DNA of 64,000 nt from Arenicola marina (taxonomy: Eukaryota > Annelida > Polychaeta > Arenicolidae), in NCBI GenBank assembly GCA_964019135.1, contig OZ025248.1, positions 13,895,574 to 13,959,573 on the forward strand, given 5' to 3'. A program made the translations under genes and the position numbers. Below are positions 247 through 39,863 of this stretch, in pieces (positions within the stretch are counted from its first letter, which is position 1; every line of letters begins with the position of its first letter). The notes under the pieces are model-generated. The model made no database searches and was not told where the DNA came from. It saw only the letters and a program-made list of their open reading frames with translations.

Positions 247-3200
247 CTTTCGTATCCTGTCCAGAGAAGCCTCCATGTTGGCGTTCCGTGTCTTTCCGGA
301 GACTCGTTCAATCAACTCGTTGGCGAACTTACAGAACCGGAGGTATTCCATTCGTTTGTCCTGTAGCACCGCCTCCCGCATCAAGACTGAAACCATTGCC
401 GGCGGCTTAAAGGCATGCCTACATCGCAGTCACATCGCGCCACTGGGCAAGGCCGAGGCCAGAGAGGAGCCATGTCCCCGGAGATAACCCCTACTCTTTT
501 CTTAGGTCATCCTTACATTATAATCAAAATGGACTTCACTTCACAGAGCGCCAAGATCAACCAATCGTGGGGCGTGTATTATTCGTAACTTGACATGCGG
601 GCAAGGACAAAATGTGTGTGTAAGAAAATGTCGATGACAGGTTTGGTCGTTATATTAACCACAACAAATAGCTATCACTTACATTGCAGTTCTCCGTTGT
701 TGAAGAGCGGCAGTTTGCTGATGATCTGTTTGACGGTGTCGCTTCGAGCCAGCCCGACCAGCGCCTGTCAACAGCAAACCACGTGACACCAGTGACAGGG
801 TTCAGCCCATGATAGCCAGGGCACCACGAGATATTACTGTTGTAAACCGCCAGTCATACAGTCATACCTTTGATTCTGTGGTAATATCATTCACATAAAA
901 TGCAGAAATTGACAGCCTTATAGACTTACAGACTATAAGTGCCGTAAAATCCCAATCAAAATCTAGTAAGATACCGTTAGAACGAGTAGATATTATGCAT
1001 ATATTACAAAAACGGTAAACGTTGTTGTTGTTGATACATACGTAGAAAATTATATACTTTCCATATATTCACTGTAATGATTAAACTGTAATAATACTTT
1101 GTGGACTCGGTACACACCTTGCAGGCCATGGCCCGGATACAGTCGGCCTCAGTGATGGGAGTCTTGACCGACAGAAGTTTGAGTAGCACCTGGAGATGAA
1201 AACCACGTGGTCAGTAACGATAAAACAGGCGCTGTGACAAGATCATATCAAAGGTTGCCCACGTCAAACGCGTGTTCCAAGTGGCGCATGCCGTCTGTCG
1301 ATCACCTGAATCACAGGGGCGCCATACTGAACTCTAATAAAAGTAGAGAATGCTTCATTTGACAGAAGATGGGTTAACAACAGCCTCGTTGCTTCAAATC
1401 TCACCATGATCCCATTGTTAGCGCGTACAGCCTCCCACATCTCACCATGATCCCATTGTTAGCGCGTACAGCCTCCCACATCTCACCATGATCCCATTGT
1501 TAGCGCCTACAGCCTCCCACATCTCACCATGATCCCATTGTTAGCGCCTACAGCCTCCCACATCTCACCATGATCCCATTGTTAGCGCGTACAGCCTCCC
1601 ACATCTCACCATGATCCCATTGTTAGCGCGTACAGCCTCCCACATCTTGCTCAGCAGGTCCTCGCCGTTCTTGAGCGTCACTTTCTTCTTGGTGCTGCCG
1701 CCCACGATGCGACCCAGGTTGGCCCCCAGGCGCGCCACCGGGCCACCCACACAGTTATTGATGACGTTGAGCGCAGACTTCTGGACGTCAGCGTCCGCCA
1801 ACAGCTCGCCTTCAGCCAGACCCAACAGCACGCTGCGACCGGAGGCGGAACCGACATGCTACTATCACAAGCAAGTCAATAACTAAGCAATATTGGTGGA
1901 GCACCAGGAACACATTGCTGGATTACTTACAAGCTCAAATAACATGGCTTGAACACCGCACTCAAATCCACAATTGCCATGTTTTGCTCATATGTTCGTT
2001 TATTGGTAGCGTGTGGTATGTGACGGACCTACCTGGTGGCCGGAATGGATCCGCTCTCGGGCAGAGACACCGTCTCGCACAGTGACATCTGGGTCTTGGG
2101 CGTCACGGAGCACACAAATAACACATCCAGCGCCGACCGGATCGTCTCGCCCCTGGACAGGCATCAGAGAGAAATACGTGAGCTATACGGGAGATATGCC
2201 GGATGCACCCGAGAAATACACACATAGTATACTACAAAGTATTGAGCTATACGTTCTGATCATTAAAATTCTCATCATTAAGATTTTGGCTTACATGTTG
2301 TTAGCAATGCAGTCTTAGAATCTAGGTTTGTATCGTTGCAGTCTTTGTCTTCACATCTACGATTTTAAGCCATAAAAATACGCCCCCCCCCCCTGTCCAC
2401 CCACACCCACGTTGCCATCACTTCAAGACACTCCCAGTCCAGCCTTCCTGTACCCCCATGTGGCCTTTAACACCCACGTTTCCCTTAAATAACTCAGTAA
2501 CACAGTAACCTCGTGGTGTGTTACACCGACACTAACAAGAGCCAATCATGGACGACCCACTCACTTCCCGGTATAGGCACCCCACTCCATCGCCATGGCG
2601 ACCAGTTGCATGAGCAGAGTGATGCCGCCCAGCTTGATGAGTCGCTGGACTGGTTCCCACTTTATCCGGTAGGGCAGGCACTCCAGGAGCAGCTCGATGT
2701 TGTCCGCGATCACCTCGGCCGGCTGTTTGTAGGCCTGCCATGGAAGGGAACGGAAAGGACATGGTCGGTTGGTTGGCTGTATATTCAGGACGCTTTAATC
2801 ATTTGTGGTCATATCGTGTGAATGTCAATCATCAAAGGAAGGGAGAGTGGAGCCATGTCCGCGGGGGTACCCCCTACTCTTTGCGAAGAAGAACATGGAA
2901 TCTTTATCCTGCGACCACAGAGACATGGCCACAGCAGGGCTCGAACCACCGATCCACGTGTCGTTAGGCTCTCAGGTGGCTACGGCACTCAAGGCGAGTG
3001 CTCTAACCCACTGAGCTACCGGGCCGGGGCGTTGTGTTAAAAAGGGAGCTTGGCGCAGAGGTCCAGCCAGGATCACGTACCTTGTAAGCGGGCATCTCGG
3101 CGATGGGGGAGCCACCTTCGTTCCTCATGTGGGAGCGCCTGATCTGGTCAGCCTTGATGGCCAGGTGGGCCTCGAAATACTTCTTGAGGGCCACACAGAC

Positions 3201-6200
3201 GTGGCGCGCCGCCTGGCGGCTGGTGAACACCTCATCGTCGCTGAAGATTGAACTGTTGTCCTCCTCAATGTTGAGAATGGCTAGCGTGCTGATCTGAAGC
3301 CAAACCAATTGCCAAAGCAGAAATTAACATCGCTATTTTTTATGATTTATAAACTCACGTGTGAACGGGGTTCCTCCGGCAGAACCATTTTTAATGCCGC
3401 CATCTCTTTCAAAGAGAAATCTAAGAACCACGAGAAGGTACGAGGTCGATATAACGTTGGCACACATGGATGTGTACACATGGATTAAACCGCCGGGTAC
3501 ACGTACCACGTTGTAGAGCTTCCGGAATCCGTCCTGGGCGTCAAACAGCTCCAGGATGATCCGGAAGGGGAAGGAGTGCCCGAAGAACATGGTGGCGTGA
3601 CATCGTCCTGACTCGTGCGAACACTCCAACAGCCACAGGACGTAGCTGCCCGGGAGAGACGTTGGTTGGTGGTAAGTGGGAAACTCTGTAGGTCATATCG
3701 CGCCAAGGGCAAGGGTCAAGGCAGAGAGGAGCCATGTACATCTCCGGGAGTAACCCCCTACTCTTTGCAGAAAGAAAGATATGGGATCTTTATCCTGCTC
3801 AAACATTTGCACAAATGTGATTCCCTCAAGCTAACATGGCGCCAATCTATCCAAACGATAAGAACAACCCCGAGTCGCTCCAAGACAATATATTGTTAAT
3901 ACTCTTGTTTAATTATTAGCGTCCCCTTCTACCAGTGTTGGATCACTTACCTCACAAGGTTGGATAATACTGAAGGCGGTAGCATGCAAACCTGAAATAA
4001 ATAAAAATACATCTAAATATCGAACCTTTGGGTATTAACAGTTATAAATAAATGAATTTTGTATAATTATCCCACATTGAAGATCCCATTAGAAAATCCA
4101 CACTTCATCGTCATGTTTAAGAGTCCTTTGTAACCTTTTGGGTTAGCCCAACAGTACCAGATTTGTCCCCCCCTTCCCCCTCACACACCCACCCTCTCCA
4201 TGGCGTCCTCGAAGTAGGACAGGTAGTACAGACACATGGAGACCCCCGTGGGGGCCACAGACGGCCGGTACACATCCAACATCCCCCCCCCCTCCAACCC
4301 CCACACACACAGGGACACCCAACCTCTCCATGGCGTCCTCGAAGTAGGACAGGTAGTACAGACACATGGAGACCCCCGTGGCGGGCACAGACGGCCGGTA
4401 CACATCCAACATCCCCCCTCCCCTCCCACCCCCACACACACAGGGACACCCACCCTCTCCATGGCGTCCTCGAAGTAGGACAGGTAGTACAGACACATGG
4501 AGACCCCCGTGGCGGCCACAGACGGCCGGTACACATCCAACATCCGCTCCACGCCGCCGCGACTGATGAACTGGATAGCGAACCGCTTGTGGCACAGCAA
4601 CGCTCCCAAATACTATGGGTCGGGAAGACACAAAGTTCTCTAGTTAGCTATATTATACGTCATCATATAATACTTTTAAAACGGGCACGGCGTGCAAATG
4701 TCCAGCATTTTAATCCGTATGATACGTTATTGAAATTACTATCTTCAAAACAAAAACAAACATTGGCGTCCTTCATATGTCATGATAAATTAGCTTCATA
4801 CACGTACGTGGGGCAAACAGTGTATCAGCCGTTTAGTAAGGGATATTATTGTGTGCAGCAGATTATTTAGTCGGACGTTGGGCGTAATGTTACACCCATA
4901 CTATGTTCTATATACTGCTATCCACGCATGTGGAACACATCAAGACGCTTTACGTACGCCGGCGTCTCACTGACCTTGAGGGCCTCAAAGGCTAATCGGA
5001 CGTCCGTGTTCTGGGACAGGTCCATGAGGTAAAAAATCAGGTCAATCGCGTGCTGCTCAAACACGTGACTCAGAAGCTGAAACCCCAGAAACAATTGTTC
5101 AGTAAGTCACAAATACTACAGCACAACTTTTTAAGGTATCGGTTCTCACTTTCTGGGTGGTAGGTATATGTAACGCGTTCGACATGTGAACGGGATTTTT
5201 CCCTTCGGAGACAGCAGACTGGCCCAAGGGTCCCTCTTCCATGTCAGAGCCCACTGAATAGGTTATTGCGCTCGGTTTGATTAGCGAGCTCTGTATAAAC
5301 AATGGCTCGCGCTAACATGGAAGAACGACCGATTCAAGTCGCGCCTTCGCTCCACCATCATTGCAGCATACCAACGTCGTGACTTTCGTCCGCGGCCCGG
5401 GGTGTCATTCAGGGATGTCACCCAGGGGTGTCACCCAGGGGTATCACCCAGAGGTATCACCAAGGGATGTCACCTAGGGATGTCACCCAGGAGATATAAA
5501 TACACGAGAAGCCACACCAACTTTTACCTCCTGATATTCGCCGACTGGCGTGAGATACTGAACGATGAGCCTCATCTGCATCTCTGGACTGAGTGGGAGG
5601 AGACTGTAGGATCCGATGACGTAACGCTCGATGTCCGCCCAGCTACTGTTGCTGCAATCAAGCGCTGAAAACAATGGCAAGATACACTGATAAGGACGCA
5701 CATACATTAAGGGTTCTAAAAGAATAGCCACCACAGAGGACACTGAAATGTCTTGTCAGATGCTTGCCCATGTTATAGTCCATACAATAAAACTGGGATT
5801 AACACTTTCGGCGACGTTATGACTCGCCCATCAATTGCGGTATGTCTTCTAAACATTCCCTACACTGACAAAGTTATCAACAATATTACGCTCGCGGCAA
5901 ATATTTAGTGTTGCGCACGCGGTGCTGGCTTTGTACATCAGATCATCACCACAAATCCGCCATTAGATTAAACCAAGGGTTACCCGCTGTAGGCTTTGTC
6001 ACTTTGAGCTCGGCCGGCTTGACAAGCGGCTGGTGAATCTTGGATGTCAACTTATAGTGTCCGTTCTTCATGGCGTCCCTTGGCCCCCGAGAAGGTCGGA
6101 GCCGCGGGTTTCGGTGTTTTCCCTTTGTGTGTCTCTCTCTCCTTATCGGTGTCCGCTCGATGTCGCTTCGACGGCGGCGACTTGTCTTCCGCTGTCGACG

Positions 6201-9200
6201 TCCTGTCGGCCTTGGCGGCCCCAGGCTTGGCGGCCGCTGCCGACGTCCTGTCGGCCTTGGCGGCCCCAGGCTTGGCGGCCGCTGTCGACGTCTCGGTCAA
6301 GGCGTCGCCCTTGACCTGACTAGAGTTTGTTTGTGACTGAGGCGGCGTCCCGCTGGAGGTCCCCTCAGACGCCGCGGTCTGGATCGTTTTACTGCGACTG
6401 CCACGCGACGTCTCCAGCTTGTTGGCCTGCTGCGACAGACGGAAGGCCAGGCTGCCTTGTCCGATGTTGGCGAAAGGTCGATCGAACTTCTCGTTTCCCG
6501 ACGCCGATGATTCCTCTCGCTTCTGGGTTATCAGGTGGTTAAGGCGTTTAAGAAGTAAGGGCACCTAAAGCGAGGAAACAGAACGAAGATTCAAAGGTTT
6601 ACACGAAAATTGTAAGTATCGCTACACAAACCCAGCATATGCAATCGTCGCTAAACATCATCATTGTACTGCCCCTGCCCTCCATCCACCAGTGGTACAC
6701 GCACCAGCAGAGCATTCTGCCCCCCCCCCCTCCCTCCACCAGTGGTACACGCACCAGCAGAGCATTCTGCCCCCCCTCCTCCACCAGTGGTACACGCACC
6801 AGCAGAGCATTCTGCCCCCCCCCCCGCCCCCCACCTCCACCAGTGGTACACGCACCAGCAGAGCATTCTGCCCCCCCCCCCCTCCACCAGTGGTACACTC
6901 ACCAGCAGAGCATTCTGCCCCCCCCCCCACCTCCACCAGTGGTACACTCACCAGCAGAGCATTCTGCCCCCCCCCTCCACCAGTGGTACACTCACCAGCA
7001 GAGCATTCTGCCCCCCCGCCACCTCCACCAGTGGTACACTCACCAGCAAGGCGTTCTGCCTCTGCCCACCCCACCTCCACACGTGGTACACTCACCAGCA
7101 GGGCATTCTGCCCCCCCCCCCCCCACCTCCACCAGTGGTACACGCACCAGCAAGGCGTTCTGCCCCCCCCCCTCCACAAGTGGTACACTCACCAGCAAGG
7201 CGTTCTGCCTCTGCCCCCCCCCTCCCCCAGTGGTACACTTATCAGCAAGGCGTTCTGCCTCTGCCCCCCCCCTCCCCCAGTGGTACACTTACCAGCAAGG
7301 CGTTCTGCTCCTTGAAGTTCCCGGCCAGGTCCTGGACCTCCATGGCTGCGGCCAGCAGACCCACCGAGTACGATCGAAGCGGTTCCTCCTCTGTCTGCGC
7401 CCACTGAATCAGCTTCAACACCAGCGCATCCTACCCGGACACACAACCAAGCCATGAGAAACACACCCTGGGGTTAAAGCAATATGCTTACATGCGCCAT
7501 CTTAGATTTTTTACATTTTAGAATCAAGACTAAAAGTATCTAAAAATGTGTGACGCATATGTTTTATATCTCTTTGAGTCTGTAAAACAAACCTTTCAAC
7601 ATAAAACTGTGCGGTTTATTTATAACGCGTGCGGACGTGATAGCGAGCCGCGGTCGACATCACACACAAAATAGCGAACTGCGAACAGGCGCGAGGGATA
7701 TAAAGCCGGCCACCAACTTCTGCTCGGTTGACCACAATGCTTCTCTCCAGATAGCCCGCAGGCTTTCAGGATTTAAATTCAAAACAGAATGTACTTATTT
7801 GACATGGAGAAGAGGTTGGTAATACAAAACATTACGGAATATATTGCCTTAACGTTTTCCAATAGCGAGCAACTCCTGGACATAATTATCTCACGAACGA
7901 GCATGTGGCACTTCCAACAGGATATACAACACAAGGTGAATGTATTGAGGCCAGATTAAATGTATATTGAATCTGAAGGTTAGGTGAAGATTAGAACATT
8001 AGTCAATAAGATGTCCGCAGCAGAAATGAGTGAAACGAAATTAAGTTATGGTGTTCAGGCCGCTTTTGTGCGTGTACAGCCTAAATTGGGCCAAGTAACC
8101 TGTCACAGATGCAGGTTCAAGGGTTCGTACCGACGACCTGTTGATCTGTATCTAAGCCTGTTTACCAACTAAGTTAGGGAGTTTCCCAAAGAAATGAGTG
8201 ATGTGATAAACTAAATTATACATTGGTAGATAACGTAATATGTACATATCATATAGAGCATGGGAATTAATATCATAACGTCATCATCCACGTCCTTTAC
8301 AATTATCGGGACACCTGCGCATCAATGTTTGAATTTTCTTGTCTTTGAAGGCCAGATTTTTTACTGTCTGCCCTAGATTTTCGGGAAACAAGGATTAAAA
8401 ACAGCAGGCCAATCAGCCTTGTGAGCATCTTTGCCATCTTCAACCACAACTTAAACTCTGATCGTGATTTGCAGAAGCACTAACTAACATTGTCTGCGAA
8501 GATGATGGTCGTCTCCAGCCCAGGCATGACATCAAGAAAGAGTCGACATGCCACTGTTTGGATGTCACATGTGTCTCTTGGTCCCAAGGGATATGAGCTC
8601 ACCAACTGAAAGACAAGAGAGGCTGTAACAGTGACCTACCCCTTCATATCACAAGTCACCAACAGTTTGTGCTATCATACTGTATGACACATTATGTTCA
8701 GCATCTATTCTATACAAATAATGGGATAAATACATGTACCATACAACCCAGACACAACATTGATTGTTTTGCAAGATTTAAAATTACTTAAAAAACTTTT
8801 ATGGAAGGACCAGATACCAGGTATATGTAACGGCAGAACATTCTGATGTTTACAAAGAGTATTAGAACAAATATATAGGAAACATAAAGTCGAGTAAGAC
8901 CCCATACATTTAGGTGGCTGATATATCTCCCACTCAGACACAGGATCTCCCTGATAACAAGTTTTACCTCCTCTGCTCTAATAATTTTTTCCTTGAACAG
9001 TTTTTATGCTGGAATTAGATTTGATGTTCATCCATTTATCAGTATCTTCCGAAGATCTGTGACTTACATTCTACCAAAGACAGCTGTTACAAGCAGCTTA
9101 CTGTCAACACATACAGCATACAAGTTAGATAAATCTAAAATAAGAAGTCCTTAAGATCCTCACCTTATTAAGGAAGTTATCATTTTTAAAGATGGCTTGC

Positions 9201-11460: not shown

Positions 11461-11589
11461 CAGTATATCTAGGATATTTTTGAGATCTTTGGCAGAGTGA
11501 GTCCGAACAGTCCCGCGTTTCTTCTGGCTCTGCTGGCAGGCAAAGGGCGCGATGTATGGAATACCAGGGCCCGTAAGTTCGAAACGCCA

Positions 11590-11609
11590 GGGGTAAAATA
11601 TTTTACCCC
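11590..11609. repeat. Perfect 20-bp palindrome
   Basis: GGGGTAAAATATTTTACCCC is fully self-complementary. A near copy (GGGGCGAAATATTTTACCCC) lies about 45 bp downstream. Function unknown. Confidence 0.9.
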
Positions 11610-20355: not shown

Positions 20356-23300
20356 ATGGCACAGCTGGAAGTGACCCTCGCTGCTATGAAGCACGACCAC
20401 CTCTCGTCGGAAAATGGTAACAACAGCTGGTCTGATTCTCGTGGACGAAAACGAAAGAATCCATCTCCTGAGAAGGTTTGTTTTTTAAAAAAACGTTTCA
20501 TTGGTCCTTTTCATATGCATGGATTTCAGTAAATTCCGGCTTTGGCGTCGGTGTATGAGGATGACAGAGTTCCATGTTATGTCATAAACCTACACATGTT
20601 TTGGTTAAGCTAGCACGTTTCAATATCTCTTACTTTACAAAGTAGCACTGTACCTAATGCCAGGACGAGATGAAATGACAAGACAAGATATGAATTCCGC
20701 CTCCCTATTGATGTTAGCAGTACTCCTAACAGGGTATGATGTATGGTTTATGCTGTGTCGTCGTCTGCTTCAGCTGTACCACAGCGCCAGAGAGGAGGCG
20801 CCCCCTACCATGTACCTGGAATGTGATGAAGATGATGATGATGGGGATAACGAGGCTGAAAACGATGATGACCTGGATGATGACGATGAAGATGAACAGG
20901 TATACACAACTTTTACTCCCAGTAGCTCCAGGTATCTTCAAAGTAGTTCTTCTGGTATTATTTTAAAAAATTTGAACCATTTATCAGTGCAGTTTGCCAA
21001 CTAAAGTTTCCCTTTATCATGTTTCGGGGATATTTTCATGCTTTTTTCTTGGCAAATCTTGGCATATGTAGCAATAAACTACATTAAAATAACAAGTAAA
21101 TTAAAAAAATAAAAGATGCGTCTCTCTACTGACTCAGGTCTTATTCTCTATCTCATTTATCTTTATCAAAATATTCTGATGCATAATTTGTGTTTATATA
21201 CAGGTGGCCTCGGTGGATATATCCAACATATCAGCCGATTACTACAATGATCTGCCAGAGATAACTCGGGCCCATCAGGATATGCCAGAATTCATGCCCA
21301 TCGGTCCTAGTCTCACACAGGGCAAGAAATCTCGGAAATCGGTAATGGACAACATTGACTGCATCTTTATATGCAATAATGTCCTAATTATTTCAGTATT
21401 GTGCAATGTAACGCTGTAAGCGCTATGCCAACCAACACGACGCGTTAAAACAAATTTCGAGGTGTCTGTAGTTTGCGCCCTTGTCACCGTGCCGCTAGTA
21501 TTGTCTTATAGTTTCATACGTATCTCTTTGCGTTTGTGTTGTGGAAGTACTACAAGCCGACTGGGAACCCCCGAGGTCGCCCAAAGAAGGCTGGTGACGG
21601 CGAAGTTGTCCAACCCGGCAACAGTCCATCCAAAAAGACACGCAAGTCGGTAAGTGAAGGCTTTATAGTTTATAATTCACCGAGCATACCCGGTAATTTA
21701 TTTTTTCAAAAGTAAGGTGTGCATGTTTAAAACGATAATCTGTTGGCGTTTAGCACGTTGCTACACAAGTTCCTATTGGTTGATGCTGTCACCGCTGCGC
21801 CTCAATGTGGCTCCTCTCACGGCATCGGGGCTCACCCCGTGACCTAGTTGGCAGCGTATGTTAGTGCAGTATAAAGATCTCATGTCTGCCTTCGCAAAGA
21901 GTAGGGGGTTACCCTGGGCACGTGGCTCCACTCTTCCATTCCTTCTCTCATCGATGCGATATGACCAGAATTAGTTAAAGCGCCCACAGTACAGTGGTCC
22001 CTTATTATACGGTCCCTCTATTATACGACTCCCTCCGTTATCCGGTCTTTTCTCTGTGCACGGAACACTTTTACATGTTAAAGCTCCTTTATTATGCGAC
22101 TCGCTAACGCGACTTACTTACTACATTTCGGCTCGTTATGCGACCGGCACACAATTTAATCCCTTTGTTAACTCGCTGCGTGGCGGCGCGGCGTGGCAGT
22201 CGACCCGATTGGCTCTGAACAAACAACACATTGCGCTAATCTGACTGGTTGTCAATGAGCAGACGTCTTAGAGCGCATCATTGTTAGTCACACCTTTTGT
22301 GTACATGCAGACAATGACCGGGAGGACTCAATCAAAATGCTGATCTTAGGATCAGGTTGTCGATGCAAGTTAACGGCACAGAGCTGGAGAAACCATAATT
22401 AGCATATAAGCTTAGCAACTTTGTTAGACTGAATGCTGATGCTATCCTGGATAAGAGGAAAGAGCAGCCAGAGCTACATCAAAGACTGAATCTTAGGAAG
22501 ATATTGTACGATGAGGTTCAGACTGACGTTTGACTGCTTTAGCACAGCACGGTACAACAACATTCCTTTGATGGCAAAGCTATTACATTGCTCTTCTCAT
22601 TGGACCTAGGCTTAGCGGATTTCTCCGCTATCAATAAATGCACTTGCGTGTTGCACGGTTTTCAGCGACGCCACTATAATAAAGCATCAGTGTTGAGTGG
22701 ATAGTCAACTGAAGTTAACCCGGAGACGGTTGCTGATTGGTGTTCGCGATACTTGGCAAAAACTGCCCATCTCGGGGCATCTCTCTATTATACGACTCCC
22801 TCCGTTATGCGGTCTTTTCGCAAAACAGAAGTCGTATAACGCAGGGACCCCTGTATACAACCAACCAACTTGAGGTTGCCTTCCTGCCATGAGGAATGTT
22901 ATGACTTCAGTACTACGTGCCGACGGGGCGTCCACGCGGGCGACCCCCCAGGAGCCACTCCCTGCCCGCCACCCCCGCCACGGGCGCCGTACCCATCATG
23001 CCCAGGACGCCAGACCTCGCCGACGAGCTGGAAGACGAACAGGGACCCAGCTCCTCGCCGGAAGTGCGCAGGACACCAGGCTTTGTAATGGTGAGCGTAA
23101 CTTCACTGGTACATCGACATGTACTTTAGTTCTTTACAATATTCTAGCGTCTTTTTGTGCAACGGAAGACCATTATTCACACGTCAAACAGGGCCGCACC
23201 GATAGCTCAGTGGGTTAGAGCGCTCGCATTGAGTGTTCTGGCCACCTGAGAGCCTAACGGCACGTGGATCGGTGGTTCGAGCCCCGCTCTGGCCATGTCT

Positions 23301-26300
23301 GTGTGGTCGCAGGATAAAGATCCCATGTCCTTCTTCGTAAAGAGTAGGGGGTTACCCCCGGGGACATGGCTCCATTCTCCCTTCCTTCTCCAATTGTCGC
23401 GATATGACCAAAAGTGGTTAAATCGTCTTGAATAGACAACCAACCACACGTCAGACTATATATATCTTATAAAATAAAATAATTAAGAGGATGATTATAT
23501 GTAAGATTATAAAGTAAGATTTTTATTGAACAAAACATCATAGAAAAATCCCCATCTTCCTTTAAATGAATAATGTTAGTTTACGGTAAGACGCCATGTT
23601 TGATTAAAAAGACGGTGCGTGGTGTACTTGTCCTTGTCTGAAGCACGTGGTGTGGCCTTTCACCCAATGTTTACATACGGGTAACACTGCTCCCCAGCGC
23701 CTGAAGGACCCGCTGGAATCGAAGCCCAAGAAGCCGATGGGGCGGCCCCGGGGCAGCGAGGGGTCATCCAGCAAGCTACAGGCGCTGGTCAATGAACTCC
23801 TGCCTAAGCGACCACGTGGCAGACCGCGTATACACCCCAAGAAAGAAGTGGTCAGTATATACATCCCCACTCACTCACTGTCATCATCTCCTCGTAACCA
23901 CCCCTGTCCTTACATCTTATCACTATACTACTGTCCCTAATGTTCATCACTGAGGCAGCTCTACTTGTCATCACCGGATTTCTCCTCCTTACTGATCGAC
24001 CACTGGGTAGATATCTGTTATGAGACAGAATCTGTAAAATGACTGGTCTGTTTTGTCCGAAGCGATGCTGCTGTCCCTTCCAATGTCCACCAATTACAGG
24101 CAATCATATTTCTATATGGAACACAGAACACTACTTGTTTTACTAAATATATCGTCTGACTGGTACGTGTGCCACATGTACGGCTGCCGGTTGGTATTGA
24201 CTGCCCGAGTTCTTTTAACGATCTGTATAACGATCATATGTGCCGTAGCGTGTCGTTTTGGCCCATATTTTCCACGATTTTGTCGCGATCGCTCTGAAAA
24301 TCACTGACGTGAGAAAGCAACACCGTGCAATTTTAATGATACCAAACTTACGTGCGCACTGCGATGTTATCCTTTTTTAAAGTTACATGTAGAGCTGACC
24401 GTTGCAACGGCTGTACCAAAATAAACATAAACAGGAAATGTTACCTTTGACCACAAGCAGTGTCAACGGCCACCGCCAAAGAAAAAGTGGCGCTCTGGAC
24501 GCTTCTATTTTTTCATATAATTTAGCCCTTGGGCCCCCTGTCGGTGGCACCGGTAAACGACTTGTGTACACACGTTTATGACGTTTCAAATCAGCACAAG
24601 TTTTCATTTTTGTGACGGACAATTCATGAATTTGAAATGTTTTGCTCATTGGCAGATAATTGGTGAGCGATATGGTAGGTGTTTATTGTCTGTTATGAAC
24701 CTTAAGGCCTTAGGTTTGTGTTCTTATACGCAAATTTGGCATTCAAAAACAGCTCCACATGCAACTTTAAGACACACATAATATTTCTCCATGCTGACAC
24801 TCCATTAGCACCAAACGCAGTTCCGCAAATATACTAAAGCACACGTCATAAGATGACGTAGTTGCCATGGCGCCGAACGTGCTCCGAACAATACATGCTC
24901 TATATTTGTACAAGCCACGCGCGCCATGGCAACTGTAGAGCATTTCATTGTCTGTGATTTGTGTCTTAAAAAAGGATAACCTCGCAGTACACACGTAAGT
25001 TTGGTATCATTAAAATTGCACGGTGTTGCTTTCTCACGTCAGTGATTATGACTTTGACTTTAGATACTTAGTAAATTTACTCATACAGAAATATTTGCCA
25101 TCAGAGACTTTAAAAAGGTTTTGGATGGAAATGAAGTCTTAAGGTCTGAAAGTGTATAAGAACTCACTTGTGTGCAATCAATAATAGGCATGTTGTTTGA
25201 GAAAACTAGCATCTTGTATGAGAAAGTGTGGCTTTTTAGCGCACTATACTAAGTATACAATACAGCCTCAAAGCTGCAATCCGTTGTACATTATTTACCT
25301 CAATCTTCCAGACGCCGAAGAAACCTCGCGGACGTCCTAGAGTACGACCAGTGGTAAGCTGTTCCCTGATTGGTCGAGGGTGGGGTAATGGGAGTTTATA
25401 CCAGTGGTTAGCTGTTCCCTGATTGGTCGATGGTGGGGGAAGGGGAGTTTATACGAGCTGTTAGCTGTTCCCTGATTGGTCGAGGGTGGGGGTAGGGAAG
25501 TTTATACCAATGGTACCGGGTCAGCTTTTCCCTGATTGATCGAGGGTGGGGGTAGGGAAGTTTATACCAGTGGTACCGGGTCAGCTTTTCCCTGATTGAT
25601 CGAGGGTGGGGGTAGGGAAGTTTATACCAGTGGTACCGGGTCAGCTTTTCCCTGATTGATCGAGGGTGGGGGTAGGGAAGTTTATACCAGTGGTACCGGG
25701 TCAGCTTTTCCCTGATTGATCGAGGGTAGGGGTAGGGAAGTTTATACCAATGGTACCGGGTCAGCTTTTCCCTGATTGGTCGGGGTGGGGGAGGGACAGT
25801 TTGTACCAGTTGTTAGCTGTTCCGTGGTGGGTCGAGGGTGGGGGAGGGTAAGTTCATACCAGTGGTTAGCTGTTCCTGATTTGTCGAGGGTTGGGGAAGG
25901 TTATACCTGTGGTAAATTGTGCCTTCATTAATCGAGGGTGACGGGTGGGGGGAGGGGTCACTGACAAAAACTCTGACAAGTGACATATCTGTTGTTTCAG
26001 GACGAGGGTGCGGTGAAGCGCCGACAGAGTAAAGTGGCCGAGATCCACCGCCTGAAGGAGATCGTGGCTGACCAGGTACGGACTGACCACGGAACGAGTG
26101 TCGTGTCCTTGTCACTGCTTCAGGAAACCCAGCCACAAATTTACATAATTCGAAATAATGCTGCGTTACATATAGTTCCATATTGATAACTTGCAAACCC
26201 CATTTTAACCGGAAGAATTCATTTCTTAACTTGATACGTTTTTATAAATTATGCTTCAACATATATCAACCAACCAGTGATTTTATTTCGGTGTGCATCT

Positions 26301-27797
26301 TGTTCTTGTCGTTGTCCAGTTCTCTTTATCTTCGTAAATATGTTGCGCAACATACTTTATCCCATACTAATCCACCACTATGCCCCATACTAATCCACCA
26401 CTCTATATCCTCAGGACAAGATAATCACGCTGTTGATGAACTTGGTCCATGACAACGGCCTTGAACTGACTCCGGAGCTCCAGGTATGGCTGCCATGAAC
26501 TAACACAATGCGACTTTCGTTTCAACAGATGTTATTTTTATTGTAACGAATGAAAACGTAAAAAATTAAGGCCCATGTGATGTTTACTTCAATTATAATT
26601 ATTTCCTCTATTTATTCTGTCACACCCAACTTGCAAGTTTGGGGTTGTTTTAGTGTGAGTGAGGGTTGTTACTGTGGTATGGTGTGTGGGTTGACAGTGT
26701 GTTTTAGTGTGAGTGAGAGCTGTGTTTCTGTGGTATGGTGCGTGGGTTGACAGTGTGTTTTAGTGTGAGTGAGAGCTGTGTTACTTTGGTATGGTGTGTG
26801 GGTTGACAGTGTGTTTTAGTGTGAGTGAGGGTTGTTACTGTGGTATGGTGTGTGGGTTGACAGTGTGTTTTAGTGTGAGTGAGGGTTGTTACTGTGGTAT
26901 GGTGTGTGGGTTGACAGTGTGTTTTAGTGTGAGTGAGGGTTGTTACTGTGGTAATGTGTGTGGGTTGACAGTGTGTTTTAGTGTGAGTGAGAGCTGTGTT
27001 ACTGTGGTATGGTGCGTGGGTTGACAGTGCAATGTGCTGTGTTACTGTGGTATGGTGCCTGGGTTGACAGTGCAATGTGCTGTGTTACTGTGGTATGGTG
27101 TGTGGGTTGACAGTGTGTTTTAGTGTGAGTGAGAGCTGTGTTACTGTGGTATGGTGCGTGGGTTGACAGTGCAATGTGCTGTGTTACTGTGGTATGGTGC
27201 CTGGGTTGACAGTGCAATGTGTATGTTCCACAGCTGAAGCTGCAGTCGCGAGAGCCGCTGCCGGACCAGAGGTTCGTCTTCCTCAACTCTGACGGCTCCA
27301 TCCGGCAGTCTGACCAGGAGAACAGCTCCTTCATCTCCCTGGGCGACAGCTTCGTCTTCCGCAACGGCGACGGCTCGCCCATCACGTCCACGGCGCCCAC
27401 CATGTCCCCCACTATGTCGCCCACAGTCGCCGCCTGCGCCACCGCGACGCCCACGCCAACGTCCAGAGGCCCCCCCACCTCGGGGCTCCCCGCCTCGGGG
27501 CCTCCGGTCGCGGGACCCCCCTCGTTCGCCCCCCTCCCGGGCCCCGCCACCGCCCACCTCTTGGACGGCTTCTCCCCAGAACAATTCTCCCTCTCGGCCT
27601 CGCCGCCCGGCGTCGGCATGGGCGGGGGCGGGGGCGGGGGGGGTCACATGACCGGTGGATCATCCGGGTCCTCATCGTCGCTCTCGTCGCCCACGACGCC
27701 ATCTTTCTTCAGCGGCGTCAACGAGCGGCAGTTCGGACCGCTGCCCTCGGTGGAGGCCTTCAGGCACCATGCGCCGCTCGGCCAACCCACCTTGTAG
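20356..27797 (+). CDS. Multi-AT-hook nuclear protein of unrecognised family, 10 exons, 519 residues
   Basis: Exons: 20356-20475, 20774-20899, 21204-21341, 21557-21649, 22911-23090, 23698-23850, 25312-25353, 26001-26075, 26415-26483, 27234-27797 (TAG stop). Every intron is GT-AG and phase 0. The ATG at 20356 (MAQLEVTLAAMKHDH) directly follows an acceptor-like CAG, so coding could begin in an unseen upstream exon. AT-hook cores, which bind the minor groove of AT-rich DNA, are RGRKRK, NPRGRPKK, GRPRGRPP, GRPRG, KRPRGRPR and KKPRGRPR. Exon 2 is strongly acidic (DEDDDDGDNEAENDDD). Exons 8-9 form a short amphipathic stretch (HRLKEIVADQDKIITLLMNL) that may dimerise. The last exon is Pro/Ser/Gly-rich and disordered after RFVFLNSDGSIRQS. 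HMGA-like architecture is visible, but homology is not claimed. Confidence 0.85.
21868..21985 (+). mobile_element. SINE body and tail fragment in AT-hook gene intron 4
   Basis: It matches the body (AAAGAGTAGGGGGTTACCC) and tail (GCGATATGACCAGAA) of the SINE at 23190-23450, without the tRNA-like head. Confidence 0.65.
21992..22853. mobile_element. pogo/Tigger-like DNA element, about 862 bp, TA-flanked
   Basis: The left end is CAGTGGTCCCTTATTATACG and the right end reads CAGGGGTCCCTGCGTTATAC in reverse complement, flanked by TA on both sides. Ends of the CAGNGGTCCC...TATACG type are usual for Tigger/pogo elements. Subterminal TTATACGACTCCCTCCGTTA recurs at both ends. No intact transposase was seen. 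Confidence 0.75.
23190..23450 (+). mobile_element. tRNA-derived SINE, near full length, in AT-hook gene intron 5
   Basis: The tRNA-like head has A-box TAGCTCAGTGG and B-box GGTTCGAGCCC. The body contains AAAGAGTAGGGGGTTACCCC and the tail GTCGCGATATGACCAAAAG. Same family as 2767-3030 (opposite orientation). Confidence 0.87.
24299..25047. mobile_element. Long-inverted-repeat element (fold-back), 749 bp, in AT-hook gene intron 6
   Basis: Arms of about 78 bp are nearly perfect inverted copies. The left begins AATCACTGACGTGAGAAAGC and runs to GGATAACATCGC-type sequence; the right ends GCTTTCTCACGTCAGTGATT. The interior of about 590 bp has no transposase-like frame. Superfamily not determined. Confidence 0.85.
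25345..25920 (+). repeat. 54-60-bp minisatellite beginning at the donor of AT-hook exon 7
   Basis: Exon 7 ends ACCAGTG before GTAAGCTGTTCCCTGATTGG. Ten or so following units repeat ACCAGTGGT plus the start of the intron. The first carry GTTAGCTG and the middle, exactly 60-bp units carry GTACCGGG. The exon contribution is only about 7-9 bases. Confidence 0.85.
26640..27225 (+). repeat. GT-rich minisatellite before the last AT-hook exon
   Basis: Units of about 56-58 bp contain GTGGGTTGACAGTGTG, TTTTAGTGTGAGTGAG and TACTGTGGTATGGTG. Shorter variants of about 44 bp lie near the end. The array stops about 10 bp before the acceptor at 27233 and does not include exon sequence. Confidence 0.85.
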
Positions 27798-27925: not shown

Positions 27926-27966
27926 TATATATATATATTTTCATATACACATATATATATATATGT
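27926..27966. repeat. (AT)n microsatellite in the presumed 3' UTR of the AT-hook gene
   Basis: Two ATATAT tracts separated by a short CATATACAC spacer lie 130 bp after the stop codon. Confidence 0.8.
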
Positions 27967-29130: not shown

Positions 29131-30062
29131 TGCCATGTAAATTATAGCATAGCTACGCACTTTGCGCCCCTTCACCCCTTACACCCCTAACGCTACACTC
29201 CTTCGCGATTACAGCTTCCAGAAAAACGCTTTAGATGCTATACCCAAAGATATTGACTCAGCGGTCAATCGTGTCGCCACACGATCGACAGAACGCAGGA
29301 ATACACAGGTTAGACCCGGGCGAGGCGGGTGGACATGGTGATAAATAAGGGTGAACATTTAGTCCTGGCTGTGTGTAGGAGTGGCTGGCGCGGTCGGTAC
29401 GACGTGACCCGGGGATAACGGTTAGGGGTACCCACCCTGGGGGCCACCCGCCCCCCCCCCTCCCTTGTGGCCGCCAGATGGTGCGGCGGGTGACCTGGTT
29501 ATCACATGCAATGCTTCCGCTCCCGTCTTCTGGCTGAGAGGATAAATTAACGTTAGTGCGGAGAAGTCCAGATATAGAACTCTTCTTTGCGCATCGGAGC
29601 CTATACTATTGTCACTAAAGCTCTCTATTTTTAGAAGACTGCGTCAAAGTTATATTTCTTGTATTTGATCGTTCGTGTCTGCTTCACCCGGAGGGTGTAC
29701 CACAATTAATTCATGTTGGGTAATGTCATATGCTGCATTAATTTTATCATTAAGCGTATGTACCCTTAACCAGTGGTAGAATACTGTTTAGAGATAATGC
29801 GGGTGTTTTTTTTTTTTCTCTTTGAGATGATATATTACACCATGTGCGATGAGAATCTTTAATATGTGTAGCATAGGGATCTAGTAGAATTCGTGTGTCC
29901 TCTTCTTTGTTAGCAAGTACGGTTTACGTAGTTCGCCCTTGTTCACAACCTAGTCAAGGCCTGGTGTTTTGTGGGTAATCACCCGTACCTCTTTAGAAGA
30001 ACTCCAGTAACGTTGGTAATGTAAGGTTCTATATACATGTGCAGACCTGGGAACAAATGGCG
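29131..30062. other. Unique intergenic DNA; no gene recognised
   Basis: The stretch between the 18-bp and 38-bp arrays has a short C-run near 29450 and a T-run near 29807. No exon with coding character was found. Confidence 0.5.
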
Positions 30063-30074
30063 TTTAGGACAACT

Positions 30075-31752
30075 GCGCCAGAGTGGACGACTGGCCTGGT
30101 GGGTCTTCCATTCAACCAGAGTCGACGACTGGCCTGGTGGGTCATCCATTCAACCAGAGTCCACGACTGGCCTGGTGGGTCATCCATTTAACCAGAGTCC
30201 ACGACTGGTCTAGTGGATTATCCATTCAACCAGAGTCCACGACTGGCCTGGTGCGTCATCCATTTAACCAGAGTCCACGACTGGCCTGGTGCGTCATCCA
30301 TTTAACCAGAGTCCACGACTGGCCTGGTGGGTCATCTATTTAACCAGAGTCGACGACTGGCCTGGTGGGTCATCCATTTAACCAGAGTCGACGAATAGCC
30401 TGGTGGGTCATCCATTTAACCAGAGTCGACGACTGGCCTGGTGGGTCATCTATTTAACCAGAGTCGACGACTGGCCTGGTGGGTCATCCATTTAACCAGA
30501 GTCGACGAATAGCCTGGTGGGTCATCCATTTAACCAGAGTCCACGACTGGCCTGGTGGGTCATCTATTTAACCAGAGTCGACGACTGGCCTGGTGGGTCA
30601 TCCATTTAACCAGAGTCGACGAATAGCCTGGTGGGTCATCCATTTAACCAGAGTCGACGACTGGCCTGGTGGGTCATCTATTTAACCAGAGTCGACGACT
30701 GGCCTGGTGGGTCATCCATTTAACCAGAGTCGACGAATAGCCTGGTGGGTCATCCATTTAACCAGAGTCCACGACTGGCCTGGTGGGTCATCTATTTAAC
30801 CAGAGTCGACGACTGGCCTGGTGGGTCATCCATTTAACCAGAGTCGACGAATAGCCTGGTGGGTCATCCATTTAACCAGAGTCGACGAATAGCCTGGTGA
30901 GTCATCCATTTAACCAGAGTCGACGACTGGCCTGGTGGGTCATCCATTTAACCAGAGTCCACGACTGGCCTGGTACGTCATCCATTTAACCAGAGTCCAC
31001 GACTGGCCTGGTGCGTCATCCATTTAACCAGAGTCCACGACTGGCCTGGTGGGTCATCTATTTAACCAGAGTCGACGACTGGCCTGGTGGGTCATCCATT
31101 TAACCAGAGTCGACGAATAGCCTGGTGGGTCATCCATTTAACCAGAGTCGACGACTGGCCTGGTGGGTCATCCATTTAACCAGAGTCGACGACTGGCCTG
31201 GTGGGTCATCCATTCAACCAGAGTCGACGAATAGCCTGGTGGGTCATCCATTTAACCAGAGTCGACGAATAGCCTGGTGAGTCATCCATTCAACCAGAGT
31301 CGACGAATAGCCTGGTGGGTCATCCATTTAACCAGAGTCGACGACTGGCCTGGTGGGTCATCCATTTAACCAGAGTCGACGACTGGCCTGGTGAGTCATC
31401 CATTCAACCAGAGTCGACGAATAGCCTGGTGGGTCACCCATTCAACCAGAGTGGACGACTGGCCTGGTGGGTCATCCATTCAACCAGAGTCGACGACTGG
31501 CCTGGTGAGTCATCCATTCAACCAGAGTCGACGAATAGCCTGGTGGGTCACCCATTCAACCAGAGTCCACGACTGGCCTGGTGGGTCATCCATTCAACCA
31601 GAGTCGACGACTGGCCTGGTGGGTCATCCATTCAACCAGAGTCGACGACTGGCCTGGTGGGTCATCCATTCAACCAGAGTCCACGACTGGCCTGGTGGGT
31701 CATCCATTCAACCAGAGTCGACGACTGGCCTGGTGGGTCATCCATTCCTTGT
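30075..31752. repeat. 38-bp minisatellite, about 44 copies, with a three-unit higher-order pattern
   Basis: The unit contains ACCAGAGTCGACGACTGGCC and TGGTGGGTCATCCATT. From about 30340 to 30900 variants with CATCTATTTA, CATCCATTTA and GACGAATAG follow one another in a fixed order, about every 114 bp. Units after 31200 more often have CATTCAACC. Open frames across it are by-products. Confidence 0.93.
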
Positions 31753-34700: not shown

Positions 34701-35585
34701 CGCCAAAATAAATCAAGAGACACGAAAGCGTCGAGTGGTTTATTTGGGGAATGCACGACAGCAACACGGCGTTGAAACAAGGCGTTAGTTCTGCTCATGA
34801 TTTGCGCGGTTCATTTGCCATGATTGGGCACAAGAAATCGACAGCGTTAGGGAAATAGCGGTTTGCTCTAATATAAATGAACTACCGATCAACTAATGCA
34901 CCAGTCAATGTGAAGCCCCAGGAGGAAGGCAGAGGGAAGTGGATATTTTGAAAATCTGAAAATGGGCAAGTGGTCCCGTCGCACTTACCTGAAAACAACT
35001 CCCCCCTGATAAGCAGTATAAGGGAATACACTCAGCTCGGCTTGTTTGAGGACACAGCGGAGTCAATGTTAACAACTGTTCATTATCAAGATACTGCACA
35101 GTTGTTCCGTTCATTATTATAATAATGCACAGTTGTTCCGTTCATTATTATAATAATGCACAGTTGTGTCGTTCTTTATTTAAATAATGCACACTTACGT
35201 TAATAAAACACGGCTAGGTATCTTTCGATGCATTATTCTAGATAATGCACACTTAAGACAAAGGCGTGACGTCACACAATTTTTTAACCGTTGTTATAAA
35301 ATTGCATAGTTTGGGTATTTATGGTCCAGATATTTCAAAGTGTGCACATTTTGGGTTATTTTTTCGCTTTTTCCATTGATAAGTTCTTCGGTATTCTATT
35401 AAAAGTAATAATTGCCTGTAGTTCGGCAGTATGCAATGTTATGGCAATGGACACGTGAAGATATCATGAGCGTACATAGAACAAAACCGCTTTAAGCTTT
35501 ACTACTATATTGATATTCTTGCAGTCCAATGCAGGCGTCGGGTGAACTGGTGCTGGGGGGGGGGGGGGGTCACTGGCAATTCGTA
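31753..35585. other. Intergenic DNA with small repeats; no gene recognised
   Basis: No credible exon was found. It includes a 47-bp tandem duplication (about 32085-32180), a 40-bp array (about 33575-33775), an inverted repeat near 34695-34760 (TGCATTCGCCAAAATAAA against TTTATTTGGGGAATGCA) and a 30-bp triplicate at 35095-35170. Confidence 0.5.
33575..33775. repeat. 40-bp minisatellite, about five copies
   Basis: Units contain TGTGCTAGACCTGAGTGTCC, then a CCACGGTTCATGCTC stretch. Copies differ at several sites. Confidence 0.8.
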
Positions 35586-35589
35586 TCTG

Positions 35590-38495
35590 GTACAGCACCT
35601 CATCACATTACATTACATCAGGGGGTTGGCCAGCTATCTGGTACAGGCACTGAGTCATATCAGGGGGTTGGCCCGCCGACACTCCCTATCTGGTACAGGC
35701 ACCCCGTCACATCAGGGGGTAGGCCCGCCGACACTGCCTATCTGGTACAGGCACCCAGTCACATCAGGGGGTTGGCCCGCCGGCACTCCCTATCTGGTAC
35801 AGGCACCCAGTCACATCAGGGGGTTGGCCCGCCGGCACTCCCTATCTGGTACAGGCACCCAGTCACATCAGGGGGCTGGCCCGCCGGCACTCCCTATCTG
35901 GTACAGGCACCGAGTCACATCAGGGGGTAGGCCCGCCGACACTCCCTACCTGGTACAGGCACCCCGTCACATCAGGGGGTTGGCCCGCCGGCACTCCCTA
36001 TCTGGTACAGGCACCCAGTAACATCAGGGGGTTGGCCCGCCGGCACTCCCTATCTGGTACAGGCACCCAGTCACATCAGGGGGTTGGCCCGCCGGCACTC
36101 CCTATCTGGTACAGGCACTGAGTCACATCAGGGGGTAGGCCCGCCGGCACTCCCTATCTGGTACAGGCACTGAGTCACATCAGGGGGTTGGCCTGCCGGC
36201 ACTCCCTATCTGGTACAGGCACTGAGTCACATCAGGGGGTAGGCCCGCCGGCACTCCCTATCTGGTACAGGCACTGAGTCACATCAGGGGGTTGGCCCGC
36301 CGGCACTCCCTATCTGGTACAGGCACTGAGTCACATCAGGGGGTAGGCCCGCCGGTACTCCCTATCTGGTACAGGCACCCAGTCACATCAGGGGGTTGGC
36401 CCGCCGGCACTCCCTATCTGGTACAGGCACTGAGTCACATCAGGGGGTAGGCCCGCCGGTACTCCCTATCTGGTACAGGCACCCAGTCACATCAGGGGGT
36501 TGGCCCGCCGGCACTCCCTATCTGGTACAGGCACTGAGTCACATCAGGGGGTAGGCCCGCCGACACTCCCTATCTGGTACAGGCACTGAGTCACATCAGG
36601 GGGTTGGCCCGCCGGCACTCCCTATCTGGTACAGGCACCCAGTCACATCAGGGGATAGGCCCGCCGACACTCCCTACCTGGTACAGGCACCCCGTCACAT
36701 CAGGGGATAGGCCCGCCGACACTCCCTACCTGGTACAGGCACCCCGTCACATCAGGGGGTTGGCCCGCCGGCACTCCCTATCTGGTACAGGCACCCAGTC
36801 ACATCAGGGGGTTGGCCCGCCGACACTCCCTATCTGGTACAGGCACCCCGTCACATCAGGGGATAGGCCCGCCGACACTCCCTACCTGGTACAGGCACCC
36901 CGTCACATCAGGGGGTTGGCCCGCCGGCACTCCCTATCTGGTACAGGCACCCAGTCACATCAGGGGATAGGCCCGCCGACACTCCCTACCTGGTACAGGC
37001 ACCCCGTCACATCAGGGGATAGGCCCGCCGACACTCCCTACCTGGTACAGGCACCCCGTCACATCAGGGGGTTGGCCCGCCGGCACTCCCTATCTGGTAC
37101 AGGCACCCAGTCACATCAGGGGGTTGGCCCGCCGACACTCCCTATCTGGTACAGGCACCCCGTCACATCAGGGGGTTGGACCGCCGGCACTTGCTATCTG
37201 GTACAATCACCCCGTCACATCAGGGGGTTGGCGCGCCGGCACTTCCTATCTGGTACAGGCACCCAGTCACACCAGAGGGTTGGACCGCCGGCACTCCCTA
37301 TCTGGTACAGGCACCCAGTCACATCAGAGGGTTGGACCGCCGGCACTCCCCATCTGGTACAGGCACCCAGTCACATCAGGGGGTTGGCCCGCCGGCACTC
37401 CCCATCTGGCACAGGCACCCAGTCACATCAGGGGGTTGGCCCGCCGGCACTCCCTATCTGGTACAGGCACCCAGTAACATCAGGGGGTTGGCCCGCCGGC
37501 ACTCCCTATCTGGTACAGGCACCCAGTCACATCAGGGGGTTGGACCGCCGGCACTCCCTATCTGGTACAGGCACCCAGTCACATCAGGGGGTTGGCCCGA
37601 CGGCACTCCCTATCTCGTACAGGTACCCAGTCACATCAAGGGGTTGGCCCGCCGGCACTTGCTATCTAGTACAAGCACCCAGTCACATCAGGGGGTTGGC
37701 CCGCCGACACTTGCTATCTAGTACAAGCACCCAGTCACATCAGGGGGTTGGCCCGCCGACACTTGCTGCCTGGTACAGGCACCCAGTCACATCAGGGGGT
37801 TGGCCCGCCCGCACTCCGCCTGGTACAGGCACCCAGTCACATCAGGGGGTTGGCCCGCCGACACTTGCTATCTAGTACAAGCACCCAGTCACATCAGGGG
37901 GTTGGCCCGCCGACACTTGCTATCTAGTACAAGCACCCAGTCACATCAGGGGGTGCCCGCCGACACTTGCTATCTAGTACAAGCACCCAGTCACATCAGG
38001 GGGTTGGCCCGCCGACACTTGCTATCTAGGACTGGCACCCAGTCACATCAGGGGGTTGGCCCGCCGGCACTTGCTATCTAGTACCAGCACCCAGTCACAT
38101 CAGGGGGTTGGCCCGCCGACACTTGCGATCTAGTAAAAGCACCCAGTCACATCAGGGGGTTGGCCCGCCGACACTTGCTATCTGGTACAAGCACCCAGTC
38201 ACATCAGAGGGTAGGCTCGCCGGCACTCCCTATCTGGTACAGGCACCCAGTCACATCAGGGGGTTGGCCCGCCGGCACTCCCTATCTGGTACAGGCAACC
38301 GGTCACATCAGAGGGTAGGCTCGCCGGCACTCCCTATCTGGTACAGGCACCCAGTCACATCAGGGGGTTGGGCCGCCGGCACTTGCTATCTAGTACTGGC
38401 ACCCCGTCACATCAGGGGCTTGGCCCGCCGACACTTCCTATCTGGTACAGGCACCCAGTCACATCAAGAGGTTGGCCAGCCGGCATTTTCGTCTT
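35590..38495. repeat. 52-bp minisatellite, about 55 copies
   Basis: The unit contains GTACAGGCACCCAGTCACAT and CAGGGGGTTGGCCCGCCGGC then ACTCCCTATCTG. Variants (CCCAGT/CTGAGT/CCCCGT, CCGGCAC/CCGACAC, ACTCCC/ACTTGC) occur in blocks. The ACTTGCTATCTAGTAC type dominates 37640-38180, implying local spread of units. One copy near 37950 is short. Confidence 0.93.
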
Positions 38496-38658
38496 TTAAG
38501 CCGGACGTCTACAATGTATCCTCCAGTTCCCAAGGGGTTTGACGCAACACCCCTCCCCCCACTAGACCCGCCTCTGCGCCGGCCGCAGCCCAAGTTATCA
38601 TCTGCTCGCGCAGAGATGTGTTCACAGAAGACGCAATTAACAAATTATTTGTGGCATT

Positions 38659-38664
38659 TTTATT
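38659..38664 (-). terminator. Possible poly(A) signal of the TASOR-like gene
   Basis: AATAAA on the minus strand, about 1.2 kb after the stop codon at 39841. It is the first such hexamer I noticed downstream; there is no cleavage evidence. Confidence 0.25.
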
Positions 38665-38837
38665 GTATACATGACAGATTGTCATTGATACATGACAGAT
38701 GTTCGTACAAAATTAAGATACATATATACATTTCTCCACGTTGCGCATTAAACTACAGAACATTTGAGACCGATGACTGCGCAACTGAATGATCACTGAT
38801 CCCCACCAGACGAGCGCATGTCTCGTAAAATGCTGCC

Positions 38838-38884
38838 TTCCGCGGAGGTACACCTTCCGCGGAGGTACACCTTCCGCGGAGGTA
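38838..38884. repeat. 17-bp triplicate
   Basis: CTTCCGCGGAGGTACAC occurs three times head to tail, the last copy diverging into an AT stretch. Confidence 0.85.
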
Positions 38885-39578
38885 TATATATACAAAATCT
38901 CCCTTGACAGGCGACAACGGGAGCCATACACAAGACGCTTACAAAGATCCTGGAAACCATAATATTTAGTTAGTTGCTCGGGTCATGCGGCTTGTCGACA
39001 ATCTCCAATGGTTTATGTACAGCGAGAAGTAATGCCCAAATGTCACTAATTTTGATACATGCAAGCTGAAACAAGTACCAATTACATACACACAATTTGT
39101 AGCAGTTGCACCACAATGAAATTGAAGCACCCATGACGTCAACAAGTAGTCTGTACATAGCAGATAGGGTGATTCTCTATAATGAGATCTACTCTATCCA
39201 CGTTCCTAGTTAAATTACTTCGATGTTTTGTCACTACATAGGTGCCCGTTATAATTGTAGACTAGACAACAAGGGTCACATCCCGCCCCACCGTAACCTC
39301 GGTAAGCGGAGCGCGTTTAATAGTTCTCTACGTCGTCGCATTCATGATGACGTCACCAGGAGCAGTTACATCACCACAATGAGTAACTTCCAATTAGTAC
39401 AATGGGGCGAGTGAGTCACTTCTCGCATTCCCAGGTAATTAATTGAGGTAGTGATACAGCTATGTGAACTGGTTCTTGATAATAAAAAACACTGTTGATC
39501 TATCTCCCAGTAAGACAGGACAGCCGATGTAGATCGAATAGACGCCCTGAAGGACACCAGCCGAAGCAGACTCCTGTG

Positions 39579-39863
39579 GTCAATTCCTGTAGCTGCGGCT
39601 GTGGCCGGTCAATTCCTGTAGCTGCGGTTGTGGCCGGTCAATTCCTGTAGCTGCGGCTGTGGCCGGTCAATTCCTGTAGCTGCGGCTGTGGCCGGTCAAT
39701 TCATGTAGCTGCGGCTGTGGCCGGTCAATTCCTGTAGCTGCGACTGTGGCCGGTCAGTTCCTGTAGCTGCGGCTGTGGCCGGTCAATTCCTGTAGCTGCG
39801 GCTGTGGCCGGTCAATTCCTGTAGCTGCGGCTATGGCCGGTCAATTCCTGTAGCTGCGGCTGT
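39579..39863 (-). repeat. 29-bp minisatellite copying the C-terminal codons and stop of the TASOR-like gene
   Basis: About ten units. On the minus strand the first unit is the coding end itself (AGC CGC AGC TAC AGG AAT TGA), followed by CCGGCCAC. The later nine repeat the same codons and stop in the 3' UTR with one or two changes. The true stop is at 39841-39843. Confidence 0.92.

Follow-up and report, generated by a model that had tools for sequence, protein, structure and literature searches.

Minisatellite arrays spanning 5' splice sites in the DCAF1 gene of an annelid-like animal resemble the mirages of amphioxus

Minisatellites whose repeat unit copies an exon end along with the adjoining 5' splice site raise the question of how such arrays come about and why the gene that carries them tolerates them. 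The question arose for a stretch of 64,000 nucleotides of genomic DNA (the window), in which an earlier note had named five arrays, four said to contain an exon end fused to its donor and one said to contain the C-terminus of a protein with its stop codon. Tandem Repeats Finder (TRF) returned 57 rows for the window, which we merged by hand into 34 arrays making up 21.8% of its length, and all five arrays were found at the places named.

The joined minus-strand exons at 247-7430 encode an internal part of DCAF1 (VPRBP) and match the human protein with E = 3e-193 in a search of solved structures; further N-terminal exons, recognised by eye in translated frames, extend up to about 10500. Each of the three arrays in this gene starts inside an exon and runs on into the intron, and what is repeated is the exon end fused to GT. 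Array 1 (1398-1647, minus strand, TRF unit 41 bp x 6.1) adjoins the exon 1832-1610 and contains six donors of the form ATG/GTGAGA, the slash marking the end of the exon; array 2 (4185-4545, minus strand, 131 bp x 2.8) includes the authentic donor after 4454 (AGG/GTGGGT), and array 3 (6678-7308, minus strand, about 50 bp x 12.9) the authentic donor after 7293 (CTG/GTAAGT). By the TRF limits the arrays hold 38 exonic bases at 1610, 92 at 4454 and 16 at 7293, and for these three donors the claim that the unit contains an exon end and its splice site stands.

The alignment with human DCAF1 shows no gap at any of the three junctions. A protein search with DCAF1 matched 666 proteins, 120 of which were listed, and at each junction we counted the listed relatives that covered at least 80% of the junction peptide. 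Junction 7293 was ungapped in 110 of 110 covering relatives (10 of the 120 dropped for coverage), junction 1610 in 118 of 118 (2 dropped) and junction 4454 in 118 of the 120 listed. Judged by homology, the repeated exon part is therefore present once in the conserved DCAF1 protein, and the intronic part is absent from it. Near its end, at about 6052-6296 on the minus strand, the long second exon seems on inspection of open reading frames to change frame, whether through a small indel, an intron that escaped recognition or an error in the sequence. A search for DCAF1 in viral contigs gave no lead.

What the arrays enlarge is the intron. They occupy 212 of 420 bases of the intron following donor 1610, 269 of 462 following 4454 and 615 of 728 following 7293 (50-84%), and the fourth array, described below, 547 of 647. 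The view that the arrays form the bulk of the adjoining introns is thus borne out, at half or more of each intron concerned, and in three introns of one conserved gene they make a route of intron growth visible. No boundary copy was found within 800 bases upstream of the acceptors of the array-bearing introns (1189, 3991, 6564 and 26001), and given that these acceptors are not copies of the unit, the process is growth of an intron rather than its birth by duplication.

The fourth array (25347-25900, plus strand, TRF unit 53-60 bp, 60 x 9.8) lies in a gene for an AT-hook protein (20356-27794, plus strand, 10 exons as modelled), whose product has a distant relative in Lamellibrachia with 28% identity over 40% of the query. 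Here the array shares only seven exonic bases at the donor after 25353 (GTG/GTAAGC), which makes it a marginal case of a boundary-spanning unit; its decoy donors score below the authentic one.

The fifth array (39578-39863, minus strand, TRF 29 bp x 9.9), for which the earlier note had claimed a unit with a C-terminus and a stop at 39579-39863, did not hold up as a coding boundary. The gene in question, at 40334-56718 on the minus strand, has very large exons with in-frame coding arrays and is TASOR-like: its protein matches DUF3715 with E = 2.6e-6, half a bit below the curated cut-off, and a TASOR chain with E = 0.023. A donor lies at 40376 in its 4.4 kb exon, yet the frame continues to its own TGA at 40336-40334, and the putative last exon, which would carry the array, rests on one AG just before 39859. 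A protein search with the C-terminal stretch found no relative. The unit reads, on the minus strand, CCGCAGCTACAGGAATTGACCGGCCACAG, and CACAG precedes seven of the nine later copies and CATAG one more, so that, if the exon were real, the array would span an acceptor (CACAG/CC), contrary to the statement that none does. We rejected the array as a coding boundary with a stop on these grounds: the exon is unproven, the upstream frame ends elsewhere, the C-terminus is without relatives and the unit would carry an acceptor. Within the 4.4 kb exon lies a coding minisatellite of 2.4 kb (41978-44462), in frame, with a 30 bp unit encoding DGSKKDGSDK-like repeats; a Pfam match to the histone-H1-like HC2 in it probably reflects composition.

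The units of the donor arrays are not clearly related in sequence. In a unit-against-unit comparison the closest pairs were arrays 2 and 3 and arrays 3 and 4, whose scores were matched by 12 and 10 of 200 shuffles, respectively, their likeness stemming from shared G runs; separate origins, as had been proposed, are therefore likely. The frame of the arrays is also telling. Each of the nine arrays that we assigned to coding exons has a TRF period that is a multiple of three (45, 15, 18, 30, 54, 15, 36, 24 and 45), whereas those of the donor arrays (41, 131, about 50 and 53-60) are not so restricted, which suggests that arrays arise regardless of frame and are filtered afterwards by selection.

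Because tandem arrays of this kind, known as mirages, have been described in amphioxus, the affiliation of the host bears on the interpretation. Over aligned parts the DCAF1 query is 69% identical to that of Capitella and 64% to that of Lamellibrachia (74% and 64% of the query region, respectively), 56% to that of the leech Helobdella, up to 63% to those of named molluscs and 57% to that of Branchiostoma. A DCAF1 tree of 21 rows placed the window within Lophotrochozoa with support of 100/100 and with the annelids at 88/87, under the 95/80 mark, and Branchiostoma among the deuterostomes. The tree and the identities rule out amphioxus as the host, which by these protein comparisons is annelid-like, a protostome, and the finding thus widens the phenomenon of boundary copying rather than repeating amphioxus.

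Our preferred explanation, which we hold to be probably though by no means securely correct, is that the arrays are amphioxus-type mirages in an annelid-like animal, duplications that the gene can bear since its first donor remains where it was. In a minisatellite-prone genome, short tandem duplications flanked by microhomology would at times chance to span a 5' splice site, as short matches at the ends of three arrays suggest: AGAT in array 1, obtained by computation, and, from inspection of the flanking sequence by eye, GCAG in array 3 and GG or GGA in array 2. The copy next to the exon would retain the original donor, and, were the spliceosome to take the first donor, the mRNA would be unchanged and all further copies would be intron. 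The array would then extend into the intron, in one case apparently with repeated re-seeding at the edge of the exon. Arrays inside exons would persist only with a period divisible by three. Splicing favours whichever AG comes first after the branch point. Arrays spanning an acceptor would probably be lost, since such an AG would insert extra sequence into the mRNA; a duplication over a donor may thus be tolerated and one over an acceptor not, because the original donor stays on the exon, while a usable AG lands upstream.

A G-rich sense strand may help the process through slippage at R-loops or G-quadruplexes. The four donor arrays have a sense-strand G skew of 0.35-0.50 against 0.05 +/- 0.16 in 23 other introns (p = 0.0007), single units are likewise skewed against random intronic segments (P = 0.0096), and a quadruplex motif occurs in three of the four arrays and in one of the 23 other introns; this base composition fits slippage linked to R-loops or quadruplexes. 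Array 3 may in addition hold a layered record. QNALL is encoded by each of its 13 copies; of the 12 decoys, counted outward from the exon, the four that match it exactly rank 1, 2, 3 and 5 (exact P = 0.004), and the three differences seen in the distal copies are all synonymous. These observations are a lead to a history in which the exon evolved within the limits set by its protein, fresh copies were seeded beside it and far copies kept the older version. A broader reading, in which donor-side arrays would represent recurrent, transcription-linked intron growth in the lineage, with G-rich slippage, re-seeding from the exon that stores older synonymous versions and purging of acceptor arrays by scanning, is one we consider doubtful.

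Several results tell against the explanation that we prefer; the placement of the arrays, to be weighed first, speaks partly for it and partly against. We counted 29 donors and 31 acceptors of the three genes, not counting the N-terminal DCAF1 exons or the donor that ends the long second exon; arrays contain four of the donors and none of the acceptors, and a search independent of TRF, in which these 60 boundaries were compared with 800 bases of flanking intron, recovered the same four donors and no acceptor. The difference is borderline (Fisher p = 0.049), and for DCAF1 alone, with 3 of 13 donors and 0 of 14 acceptors, p = 0.098. Uniform scatter of all 34 arrays puts a mean of 4.0 on donors, with four or more in 60% of trials, and an expected 4.2 on acceptors, none being hit in a fraction of trials of P = 0.007. 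When only the 10 non-coding arrays were scattered, within gene territories, 0.78 donor hits were expected against the four seen (P = 0.0048) and 1.1 acceptor hits, none having P = 0.31; four or more donors without an acceptor had P = 0.0021. The two nulls thus disagree, the one finding the donors as expected and the absence of acceptors odd, the other an excess of donors, and every null was built after the finding had been seen. A modest donor preference is the fair reading. That every case sits at a donor is correct for the supported cases and fails as a rule, given the borderline p value and the acceptor cases of amphioxus (PMC3087553). The proposal of a process aimed at coding/noncoding borders we set aside, as in a window that is 22% arrays uniform scatter of them all already puts about four on donors.

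The remaining points on this side concern the traces that the arrays carry. Four of the six other intronic arrays are likewise G-skewed on the sense strand, one of them at 0.71, and the skew may for this reason belong to intronic arrays rather than to donors. The frame rule of the coding arrays is partly circular, since open frames were the means by which the exons of the TASOR-like gene were identified. In arrays 1 and 2 the three distinct decoy changes all alter the protein and do not follow distance from the exon. The age order in array 3 amounts to three transitions, with a chance probability of about 0.015 counting all changes and 0.10 counting transitions only, which is why its layering is only a lead.

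There is also the matter of splicing. Of the 19 decoy donors in the DCAF1 arrays, 17 still have GT in the authentic register, so that the first donor has to prevail; 12 of the 17 match or nearly match the authentic site in strength, as scored with approximate human frequencies. The authentic sequence recurs unchanged in five decoys of array 1 and one of array 2; array 3 has 12 decoys, 11 of them with GT, of which six score 10.5, against 10.6 for the authentic donor, and five score 7.1. The nearest decoys of arrays 2 and 3 are without GT at the authentic register; in the array 2 decoy at 4323 GT has been lost there and GTTGGG remains one base upstream. Of the 17 decoys with GT, 16 would, if used, throw the reading out of frame or run into a stop codon. 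The array 2 decoy at 4193 is intact and in frame (+261 nt) and would add 87 codons. Predicted RNA structure exposes the first donor inconsistently: in array 2 the authentic site was more exposed than the intact decoy, in array 1 it ranked second among six sites and in array 3 fourth among 13, and structural hiding of the decoys was rejected as a general explanation. Why the first donor should win is thus explained neither by site strength nor by RNA structure; either it wins by order of synthesis or by exon definition, or some aberrant mRNA is made. The arrays pit as many as 12 intact and very similar donors against one another and so offer a natural test of first-donor choice.

Given these difficulties, other explanations have to be weighed. 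Plain coincidence, in which arrays arise anywhere and some of them cross donors with neither a border mechanism nor a selective asymmetry, is a possible if somewhat unlikely account; the abundance of arrays in the window and the mean of 4.0 donor hits under uniform scatter speak for it, as do the amphioxus cases at both boundaries (PMC3087553), but the same null calls for 4.2 arrays on acceptors and yields zero in 0.7% of trials, the excess of non-coding arrays at donors has P = 0.0048, and the sense-strand G skew is consistent in four of four donor arrays. Alternatively, the decoys might be regulatory, a distal donor giving a frameshifted mRNA for nonsense-mediated decay or a DCAF1 longer by 87 residues, and the arrays would then tune the level of DCAF1. 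We regard this as improbable: the retention of GT in most decoys, with an open frame at 4193 and a frameshift or stop in the other 16, would accord with it, but decoys of arrays 1 and 2 carry protein-changing differences, and the decoys nearest the exon in arrays 2 and 3 have lost their GT as those of a neutral intron would.

That the introns themselves were born by tandem duplication of exonic sequence, which would have supplied both splice sites, is highly improbable in view of the acceptors, none of which has a boundary copy within 800 bases upstream, even though introns are known to be gained by tandem duplication (PMC3443670) and the paper on the amphioxus globin gene proposes that origin for mirages (PMC3087553). 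An assembly artefact, with copies made or multiplied by misassembly, is scarcely credible. The copies of array 1 are 99% alike by TRF, and in amphioxus the copy number in PGBD5 differs between two assemblies (PMC3902484), yet copy-by-copy listing of the present arrays revealed ordered variants and differing unit lengths, and the PGBD5 arrays were upheld by re-examined Sanger and new Illumina data (PMC3902484).

Other repeats of the window are recorded here in their own right. Two intronic arrays, at 26646-27221 and 56770-56932, end 12 and 51 bases before an acceptor and, unlike the donor arrays, have no exon copy. Between the AT-hook gene and the TASOR-like gene TRF found two long arrays, at 30078-31746 (38 bp x 44) and 35634-38485 (52 bp x 55). 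A self-BLAST of the window, which leaves out matches closer than 3.5 kb, revealed three copies, each about 280-380 bp long, of an interspersed repeat (7474-7852, 40033-40312 and 54864-55237, the first and third 92% identical) and a dispersed element with inverted copies at 2770-3022 and 23199-23446, 85% identical and in introns of two different genes. Inverted repeats of 82 bp (24299-24380 with 24966-25047, 96% complementary) and 81 bp (60496-60576 with 60753-60833, 94% complementary) resemble small foldback or MITE-like elements. Scans of the window with Rfam and for tRNA genes gave no lead.

Mirages were reportedly the subject of a 2002 paper on amphioxus Adh, as later papers cite it. Several other systems invite comparison with the present arrays. 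In earthworm metallothionein, large minisatellite arrays occupy an annelid first intron, and the available portion of that report describes no exon or splice site in their units (PMC12783039). Human genes in segmental duplications have internal tandem repeats at exon-intron boundaries, where minisatellite expansion likewise changes gene structure; those repeats are often retained in an alternative transcript (PMC2812944), whereas the present arrays are known from genomic DNA alone. Intron gain by tandem genomic duplication shares with our case a duplicated segment that carries a splice site, but there the copies supply both donor and acceptor (PMC3443670), and here the acceptors are not copies and existing introns are enlarged. 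Our limited literature search on boundary-spanning minisatellites found no annelid or other protostome case in the material available.

The closest likeness is to the mirages known in the Adh3, globin, troponin C and PGBD5 genes of amphioxus (PMC3087553, PMC3902484), minisatellite-like tandem copies across exon-intron boundaries whose unit length differs by gene, and the likeness drawn by the earlier note is sound, as the structures match. All three DCAF1 arrays have a unit that crosses from exon into intron, as does, marginally and by seven bases, the AT-hook array, and the encoded protein would, by homology, be unaffected, the copies being excluded from the conserved product; regular splicing has been reported for the amphioxus Adh3 and globin mirage genes (PMC3087553, PMC3902484). 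The systems differ in that mRNA and length instability were tested in amphioxus, while the present arrays are known from one genomic sequence, and in that amphioxus mirages include acceptor boundaries (PMC3087553), whereas here donors only are involved, with three arrays in one gene and an annelid-like protostome as host. The kind is thus already known. What the window adds is a protostome host for boundary-copying minisatellites, described mainly in amphioxus in the literature examined, the presence of three such arrays within a single gene, a preference for donors that merits testing, G-rich sense strands common to the arrays, and a hint that copies were re-seeded from the exon. Both the asymmetry between donors and acceptors and the younger copies near the exon are predictions for an annelid genome with RNA data.

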